Shown here: one piece after another, positions 17,402 to 18,716 of the stretch
Layout: every line of letters starts with the position of its first letter
Numbering within the stretch: the first letter of the stretch is position 1
Source of the DNA: Synechococcus sp. LA31
Lineage (GTDB): Bacteria > Cyanobacteriota > Cyanobacteriia > PCC-6307 > Cyanobiaceae
Length of the DNA: 64,000 nucleotides
Direction: 5' to 3'
Assembly: GCF_018502385.1 (NCBI RefSeq)
Contig: NZ_CP075523.1
Coordinates: 558,001-622,000 of the forward strand
Made by a program: the position numbers and the translations under genes
Notes under the pieces: model-generated
Told to the model about the DNA's origin: nothing
Seen by the model: the letters and a program-made list of their open reading frames with translations, nothing else
The model's database searches: none

Positions 17402-18088
17402 TCAGAGGCCGAGAACGCCACCGTCGCCCATCAGGTTGGGAGGGTTGATCACGTCTCGGTTGAAGAGATTCACCAGTTCGCCGCTATCAAAGCCTGAACC
17501 GGGTGAGGTGAAGACATCGACCAACGAGCCGATCGGATTCTCCTGCTGTGCCAATGCCTCGAGGGCGCCAGGGCTGACCTCGGCTTCTTGGATGAGCGAT
17601 ACACGACCAGGATTAACAAGGAGGTCCTGGCTGTTGAAGACACCATCGCCATTGGCATCCAGCAGGCTGATCCACTCACGAAAGGCTGTGCTGCCCGTGC
17701 CACCACCGGTTAGACCGTCGTCTTCGTTGCCTGCTGGCGTCCGCTCGTTGTCCAAGGACAGGTCATGGTCAACCACTTGGAAACGGCCTTTCTTTTTGCT
17801 GACCTTGATCTTGACGCGGTCGCCGGGGGTGAAGTCATAGTCCTTGCCCTGGTAGCTGAAGCTGGCGTCTAGGCCATCGCCCTGGATGTCTTCGACATTG
17901 AGCCAGCCTTTCACTTTCTTACCGCGGGCACGAAAGTTGGATTCGAAGCTGCCATCACCATCAACTGTGCCGTTCAGGCTGATCTCTTTTTTGGCTCCTT
18001 TGCCTTTGGAGAAGCCTTCAAATGACCAGCCAATGCCGGTGAGGGTGTCAACGTTGCCGAGATCGCCAGAGAAACCAAAGCGTGCCAT
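17402..18088 (-). CDS. Hypothetical protein with EF-hand/dockerin-like calcium loop
   Basis: A 228-residue acidic protein of unknown function. The N-terminal 110 residues are beta-rich with Gly and charged residues (ARFGFSGDLGNVDTLTGIGW), the middle is Gly/Thr-rich, and residues 144-155 read DANGDGVFNSQD, a good match to the calcium loop of EF-hands and dockerin repeats. No signal peptide is visible from ATG 18088, and only one loop is present where true dockerins have two. It may be an extracellular or S-layer type protein exported by a C-terminal signal, but that is a guess. The gene stands alone and is divergent from the YjbQ gene. Confidence 0.7.
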   Translation of the reverse strand: MARFGFSGDLGNVDTLTGIGWSFEGFSKGKGAKKEISLNGTVDGDGSFESNFRARGKKVKGWLNVEDIQGDGLDASFSYQGKDYDFTPGDRVKIKVSKKKGRFQVVDHDLSLDNERTPAGNEDDGLTGGGTGSTAFREWISLLDANGDGVFNSQDLLVNPGRVSLIQEAEVSPGALEALAQQENPIGSLVDVFTSPGSGFDSGELVNLFNRDVINPPNLMGDGGVLGL

Positions 18089-18169
18089 TGTTTTGAGTGG
18101 GTGTGTGGTTGAGGAGGCTGTTTTGCCTCCGATGCACATACCTTCGCCCGGTTCTTTGTCGCAGCCGTT

Positions 18170-18205
18170 GATCACAGACAAGTTCCGCTGTGATCTTGCT
18201 CACAG
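18170..18205. promoter_or_regulatory. CRP-type palindrome with an extra half-site in a divergent promoter region
   Basis: CTGTGATCTTGCTCACAG at 18188-18205 contains TGTGA-N6-TCACA, the exact consensus geometry for CRP/SyCRP1-type cAMP receptor proteins. A further half-site, TCACA, sits at 18172-18176 within GATCACAG, which is the inverse of CTGTGATC at 18188-18195. The site is 62 bases before the YjbQ ATG and 100 bases from the minus-strand start at 18088, so it could act on either gene. Confidence 0.55.
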
Positions 18206-18266: not shown

Positions 18267-18716
18267 ATGCGTCAGCACCTCAGCCGCCTTGCCGTGCCGA
18301 CCAGCGGTGAGGGCTTCACTGATCTCACAGCGGCACTCAATAGAGAGATTGCGTCGAGCGGCTTGCAGCAGGGCATCGCCCAGCTGGTGGTGCTGCACAC
18401 CAGTTGCTCGCTCACGGTGAATGAGAACGCCGATCCGCGTGTGCTGCGCGATCTCACCACCTATTTGCGTGCGCTGGTGCCTCAGGAGGGGGTGCGCTCC
18501 CTCAGTGGCGAGGGTGGTTTGCAGCGCTACGCCCATGACGACGAAGGCCCTGACGACATGCCAGCCCACATCCGCACGGCCCTCACCACCACAAGCCTGG
18601 GCCTGTCATTTGAGCGGGGCCGCCTGCTTCTGGGTACGTGGCAAGCCGTGTATTTGTGGGAGCACAGGGCTCGCGCCCATCAGCGCCAGCTCAGCCTGCA
18701 CCTCATCGGTGAGTGA
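18267..18716 (+). CDS. YjbQ/UPF0047 family protein (secondary thiamine-phosphate synthase type)
   Basis: This 149-residue protein has the UPF0047 signatures VVLHTSCSLTVNENADPRVLRDL, YAHDDEGPDDMPAHI and GTWQAVYLWEHR. Members have weak thiamine-phosphate-synthase activity and have been annotated as such, but the physiological role is uncertain. ATG 18267 gives the usual length of about 140-150 residues. A cupin gene follows after 8 bases, then PCD and GAP genes, forming a tight plus-strand run possibly controlled by the CRP-like site upstream. Confidence 0.85.
   Translation: MRQHLSRLAVPTSGEGFTDLTAALNREIASSGLQQGIAQLVVLHTSCSLTVNENADPRVLRDLTTYLRALVPQEGVRSLSGEGGLQRYAHDDEGPDDMPAHIRTALTTTSLGLSFERGRLLLGTWQAVYLWEHRARAHQRQLSLHLIGE

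Follow-up and report, generated by a model that had tools for sequence, protein, structure and literature searches.

The window analysed here, a stretch of 64,000 nt from the genome of Synechococcus sp. LA31, contains a perfect CRP-type palindrome which is probably part of a cAMP-CRP-activated promoter that reads leftward into a divergently oriented gene for a protein of 228 aa. The palindrome is the first element of a composite promoter-leader cassette, and this cassette would represent a CRP regulon for exported proteins, because it precedes many unrelated genes that are enriched for apparently exported products. The features of the locus are as follows:

17402-18088, minus strand: predicted regulated gene, 228 aa (MARFGFSG...), orthologs of which keep the box and the cassette
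18113-18130, minus strand: 5' mRNA hairpin, GGAGGC-AAAACA-GCCTCC, which folds at -12.0 kcal/mol
18133, minus strand: predicted transcription start, an A after C, in a column that holds a purine in 85 of 85 cassettes
18140-18145, minus strand: predicted -10 element GAAGGT (GATGGT or GATAGT in the family, position -11 being occupied by A and -7 by T), as suggested by its fixed spacing
18169-18180, minus strand: weak second box, TGT-N6-TCA here and TGA-N6-TCA in the family, predicted centre at -41.5
18189-18204, minus strand: strong CRP box (TGTGAGCAAGATCACA on this strand, TGTGATCTTGCTCACA as given for the window), perfect consensus TGTGA-N6-TCACA, predicted centre at -63.5
18267-18716, plus strand: yjbQ (UPF0047, by Pfam), on the other side of the gap and judged not to be the target

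A perfect CRP-type box in a divergent gap

The sequence-only reading of this DNA had pointed to a perfect CRP-type palindrome, which was confirmed as CTGTGATCTTGCTCACAG at positions 18188-18205, its half-sites being TGTGA (18189-18193) and TCACA (18200-18204). The gap is divergent as had been described, being bounded by an ATG at 18088 on the minus strand and an ATG at 18267 on the plus strand. This is the sole perfect TGTGAN6TCACA of the window, for which dinucleotide shuffles predict 0.01 occurrences. The genome (2.75 Mb, one contig), scanned by means of pattern searches and small stretches, holds six perfect boxes against none for the reversed pattern, bearing out the earlier view that the match is unlikely to be due to chance. 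When up to one mismatch is permitted, 43 boxes are found genome-wide versus nine for the reversed pattern. All six perfect boxes are intergenic according to a simple codon-usage gene caller, by which the window itself is 91% coding. One-mismatch boxes were rejected as a target class because 26 of 37 fall inside genes. A CRP-type protein that senses cAMP very probably binds the box of the window.

Architecture of the cassette

Downstream of the strong box come, in fixed order and at fixed spacing, a weak TGA-N6-TCA box (22 bp away), a -10 element of poor quality, a pyrimidine/purine initiator and, in the mRNA, a 5'-terminal hairpin. Perfect boxes are also present in five more genomes of the genus, mostly at a near-equal distance from quite different genes, which include those for an RTX protein, signal-peptide proteins and an adhesin-like protein. 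Fourteen promoters, aligned without gaps, share the box, TGA-N6-TCA, GGCGAnGnT and (C)ATCGGAGG, and then the hairpin; two promoters of genome G020 fit poorly, with six and seven mismatches at best. The alignment yielded a search pattern of 83 nt with 24 fixed bases, drawn from this genus and applied with at most three mismatches.

Conservation was assessed in 85 non-redundant cassettes, obtained from 118 by removing untypical or chance loci and end-cut segments (leaving 109) and then near-duplicates; seven loci were dropped from this set (L149, L163, L168, L203, L226, L242 and L244). Columns that are not part of the pattern proved to be conserved as well, namely the CAA within the strong box (76, 83 and 80 of 85), a T (74) and an A (75) in the weak box and a T (71) in the -10 element. 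A third half-site that had been claimed for this gap, TCACA at 18172-18176, is present in the window but is not a conserved element, as TGTGA occurs at that register in two of 118 cassettes; it overlaps the weak box, the TGA-N6-TCA core of which is found in 86 of the 118. The predicted start places the two boxes at -63.5 and -41.5, compared with activating positions of -41.5 or about -61.5. Furthermore, a leader stem of at least four pairs is present in 68 of the 85 cassettes versus 4.65 +/- 2.0 in shuffles, and the stem pairs vary among cassettes, being of the G-C, A-U, C-G and U-A types. An Rfam search of the leader up to an E value of 0.1 returned no known RNA element, and it may be conjectured that the hairpin acts in mRNA stability.

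According to the mechanism that we propose, a CRP dimer would bind the perfect box centred at the predicted position -63.5, the weak TGA-N6-TCA box at the predicted position -41.5 would be occupied by another dimer or by some related protein, and the two bound proteins together would bring RNA polymerase to the poor -10 element at 18140-18145. Transcription would then proceed leftward from the predicted start at 18133, generating an mRNA with the hairpin at its 5' end, and we infer that the effect of CRP is one of activation rather than repression.

Distribution of the cassette

Of the 400 family genomes searched, 55 contain the pattern, with 301 copies in all and up to 22 in a single genome; the reversed control was not found at all. 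In genome G028, which belongs to another genus and was not used in building the pattern, all four perfect boxes match it with one mismatch each. A relaxed exact pattern returned 67 stretches from a collection of 84,980 species, 62 of which are cyanobacterial by record title (Synechococcus, Prochlorococcus, Vulcanococcus or otherwise cyanobacterial), the other five being assigned to Acidobacteria (two), Blastopirellula, 'TMED88' and Porticoccaceae. The hosts include many tiny cyanobacteria of the ocean and of freshwater. The records of the TMED88 bacterium (L221, with three cassettes) and of Porticoccaceae (L235) carry typical cassette genes and are probably misbinned picocyanobacterial contigs. 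A sigma-factor gene found at three mismatches (L168) and a response regulator gene in an Acidobacteria record (L203) are probably chance matches.

The LA31 genome possesses two copies only, one of which lies ahead of a frameshifted gene: at this second cassette (L006/L143, G000:C1:2358140) a signal-peptide gene is frameshifted relative to two copies in genome G007. Elsewhere, four cassettes lie within 3.7 kb in genome G028 (L146, G028:C4:209500-219500), before four different small or secreted-like genes.

The probable regulator

A SyCRP1-like CRP is encoded in the LA31 genome, as a protein of 236 aa that matches PF00027 and PF13545 above cut-off (a cNMP-binding domain and a Crp-type HTH); E. 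coli CAP is among its PDB relatives. Its recognition helix reads RETASR, and all 21 orthologs read retain both the RExxxR spacing and the GE...RS pocket residues; we take the former to be the DNA-reading residues, as in E. coli CRP, and the latter to be those of the cAMP pocket. With CRP encoded, the box conserved (see below) and perfect boxes avoiding genes, none of the three outcomes that the sequence-only reading had set against itself occurred.

CRP was detected at E<=1e-20 in 75 of the 400 genomes, 42 of which also carry the cassette; 13 genomes have the cassette only, 33 have CRP only and 312 have neither. The overall p value of this co-occurrence is inflated because the genomes are related. 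Within three genera the association gave p values of 0.003, 0.006 and 0.023. Among genomes at least 90% complete, the cassette is present in 17 of 17 with CRP versus three of seven without in genus g57, in four of five versus one of 14 in g5, and in four of five versus one of nine in g1.

It is rather unlikely, though worth weighing, that the cassette is real and serves another regulator, be it another CRP/FNR protein acting on TGA-N6-TCA or a SigF-type sigma factor acting on a GGTAA-like element, with cAMP-CRP in a minor role or none. The strongest objection to the CRP reading is that, of the 13 out of 55 cassette genomes without CRP at E<=1e-20, five are at least 90% complete (G023, G028, G155, G307 and G349) and keep their cassettes, G028 being a complete genome in which no CRP ortholog was detected. 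Further CRP-family proteins are encoded by LA31, the weak box resembles what we take to be the FNR consensus, and letters similar to GGTAA or GGTGT occur close to the -10 element; SigF promoters are described as unlike other sigma promoters in the parts consulted of a review of cyanobacterial sigma factors (PMC2758279). The strong box, however, is the exact CRP consensus, and CRP keeps RExxxR where an IdiB-like protein of the CRP family has RVTTTR; moreover, the cassette and CRP co-occur within genera. As to sigma factors, the SigF consensus comprises a -32 element about 15 nt before GGTAA, and the cassette alignments contain no conserved columns for such a -35/-32 element 15 nt upstream.

Turning to cAMP itself, the LA31 genome has a single PF00211 match (L012, G000:C1:2409258), in which a protein-kinase domain is joined to a class III cyclase domain; this cyclase-like protein has H where active enzymes have N, a possible change in the active site. 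Also observed were two ABC exporters that carry a cNMP domain at the N-terminus, each beside an HlyD-type protein (L261:2239-5247 and L262:5149-8103, the cNMP match of L262 being below the Pfam cut-off), so that export itself may sense a cyclic nucleotide.

Assignment of the box to the divergent gene

The sequence-only reading had left open whether the box controls a calcium-loop gene or a YjbQ-cupin-PCD-GAP run, and it is the divergent gene that was upheld. The 228-aa gene was sought in 149 genomes and matched in six, all of the same genus: four orthologs with upstream DNA, one cut at a contig end (G021) and one weak N-terminal match (G007). In all four orthologs with upstream DNA the perfect box begins 116-117 nt ahead of the ATG, and the operator belongs to the minus-strand gene because the box follows that gene, G015 included. 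The conservation in close relatives that had been asked of the box was thus found, and it is conservation with the divergent gene.

It is highly improbable that the box serves CRP in controlling the yjbQ-cupin-PCD-GAP run, or both sides of the gap, even though it lies in a divergent gap at 70.5 bp from the start of yjbQ, a plausible distance. A search for yjbQ in 60 relatives gave matches in 53, and among the 30 loci read the box is missing upstream of yjbQ in 27; the three that have it (LA31, G013 and G022) coincide with the three in which yjbQ has the 228-aa gene as its divergent neighbour. In G015, some 600 bp separate yjbQ from the box, which is still beside the 228-aa gene, and all other parts of the cassette point to the minus strand.

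As for the product of this gene, it had been termed 'EF-hand-like', and a D-x-N-x-D-G loop is indeed visible by eye, but an EF-hand family match was not obtained: Pfam returned no match to an EF-hand or any other family at E<=0.001, nor did Pfam and NCBIfam at 0.01. A PDB sequence search gave no credible match, and a single-sequence AlphaFold2 model had a mean pLDDT of 39.5 and was unusable. Since the protein matches no family, its possible export is suggested solely by the company that it keeps. In G013 the ortholog (L055, G013:C1:729260-729976) contains one in-frame TGA and is therefore broken or shortened, and its cassette is intact.

Genes behind the cassettes

Behind the cassettes, an ATG-initiated ORF of at least 40 aa is present at 75-135 nt in 94 of 100 cases, versus 21 of 100 in the opposite direction, although this narrow distance is partly selected because the choice of start codon favoured an ATG at 75-135 nt. 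Export signals were identified by crude regular expressions of our own making rather than by a trained predictor, and by these rules 57 of 103 cassette proteins carry such a signal versus 33 of 161 other genes of the same loci. The 103 proteins, taken from the 118 cassettes after omission of L203, L242, L244, duplicates and cassettes lacking an ATG ORF of at least 40 aa at 75-135 nt, comprise 31 with a double-glycine-like leader, 20 Sec-like, four RTX, two with a pilin motif and 46 without a signal, the 228-aa protein of the window being among the latter; the 161 control genes comprise 29 Sec-like and four double-glycine-like. Family models applied to 96 cassette proteins recognized CCRG-2 RiPP in 16, RTX repeats in seven, the pilin methylation motif in two and a matrixin-like domain in one. 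The proteins are mostly unrelated, with a mean column identity of 5% (computed from 96 of 98 proteins, excluding the frameshifted L006 and L025, which has an in-frame TGA).

The same cassette stands before many unrelated picocyanobacterial genes, a large share of whose products are apparently exported as double-glycine leader peptides, Sec-type, RTX or pilin-like proteins. We lean, with some reserve, towards the broader proposal that picocyanobacteria use a dedicated, portable promoter-leader cassette to give a single cAMP switch control over many exported proteins and peptides, which are non-homologous and change fast, that new exoprotein genes would join by gaining the whole cassette, and that lineages would lose the regulon along with crp.

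A dispersed repeat that is copied together with gene duplicates, so that its conservation would say little on regulation, might be suspected from clustered copies with related leaders in genomes G102, G263 and G028. This explanation is scarcely credible, given that the key positions are common and the spacers differ, that the genes show the low identity noted above, that the distance to the ATG is narrow, and that stems stay paired with different pair types. Finally, a genome of 2.75 Mb can hold a few such sites, but a chance palindrome has a negligible probability in view of the 0.01 boxes expected in the window and the 301 cassettes against none in the control, and is refuted by conservation of the box in four of four orthologs.

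Relation to known systems

In E. coli, tandem CRP promoters of class I plus class II combine a site at -41.5 with an upstream site, a poor -10 element and no clear -35 element. The cassette is similar in having a site at the predicted position -41.5 plus an upstream site, a poor -10 element and no clear -35 element, and differs in that its upstream site is at the predicted position -63.5, the order of strong and weak box is fixed and a 5' hairpin is common to its members.

In cyanobacteria, SYCRP1 of Synechocystis PCC 6803 is described in the consulted parts of PMC4284465 as cAMP-dependent, with an E. coli-type consensus, and as controlling motility and the surface components CccS and CccP. 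The LA31 system likewise features a CRP with an E. coli-type consensus; the identity between LA31 CRP and distant cyanobacterial CRPs is about 35-42%. In those same parts of PMC4284465, whose targets were not compared one by one with ours, a fixed tandem cassette with a 5' hairpin was not seen described. Xu and Su (2009) predicted cyanobacterial CRP regulons with TGTGAN6TCACA and a patchy loss of crp together with its sites, also covering the marine strains MIT9313, MIT9303, CC9311 and CC9605 (PMC2633013, in part). Single boxes were scored in the sections of that study at hand, yielding diverse or hypothetical targets, whereas the LA31 type is a composite cassette; the words secreted, tandem, extracellular, bacteriocin and RTX are absent from its main text.

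Syn_GI122, a gene module of marine Synechococcus, joins cAMP genes and surface proteins, an association of gene content for which no promoter or regulon statement was seen in the consulted portion of PMC7522525. Cassette-linked double-glycine proteins resemble the small cyanobacterial double-glycine precursors of PMC3140520, which also reports long C39 exporters carrying a CAP_ED domain, and the biofilm proteins EbfG, which are likewise small with a double-glycine leader (PMC4997328), both sources being seen in part; in the former, a CRP-linked promoter cassette was not seen and the word 'promoter' has zero occurrences in the portion at hand. The cassette itself was not found described in searches of an open-access library. 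A CRP regulon is thus of a known kind, because CRP boxes, SYCRP1 and surface proteins, a module of cAMP and surface-protein genes, double-glycine precursors and CAP_ED exporters have already been described; what seems to be new is the cassette as a composite unit, together with its association with exported proteins.

So far, picocyanobacterial cAMP-CRP targets have only been predicted and are mostly hypothetical, as far as the consulted parts of these sources go. If the present reading is correct, cAMP-CRP would control much of what these abundant cells export, i.e., peptides, RTX and pilin-like proteins, and the 301 promoter copies, with a single predicted regulator and a single predicted start site, would be directly testable. 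The cassette also provides a sequence handle on short peptides destined for export, which may escape gene callers.

Perfect boxes outside the cassette

In genome G015, the end of crp is followed at about 240 bp by a perfect box (TGTGATTCAGCTCACA; L116, G015:C11:496358) that is not a cassette (five mismatches), for which autoregulation or chance is possible. Perfect palindromes were also observed in the gap between the iron-transporter genes futA and futB, as TGTGACnnnnGTCACA (L002 and L104) and, in L108, as TGTGATGAATGTCACA. The LA31 copy (G000:C1:209166) adjoins the gene for the IdiB-like CRP-family protein with the recognition helix RVTTTR, and these boxes probably form a second, iron-linked set.
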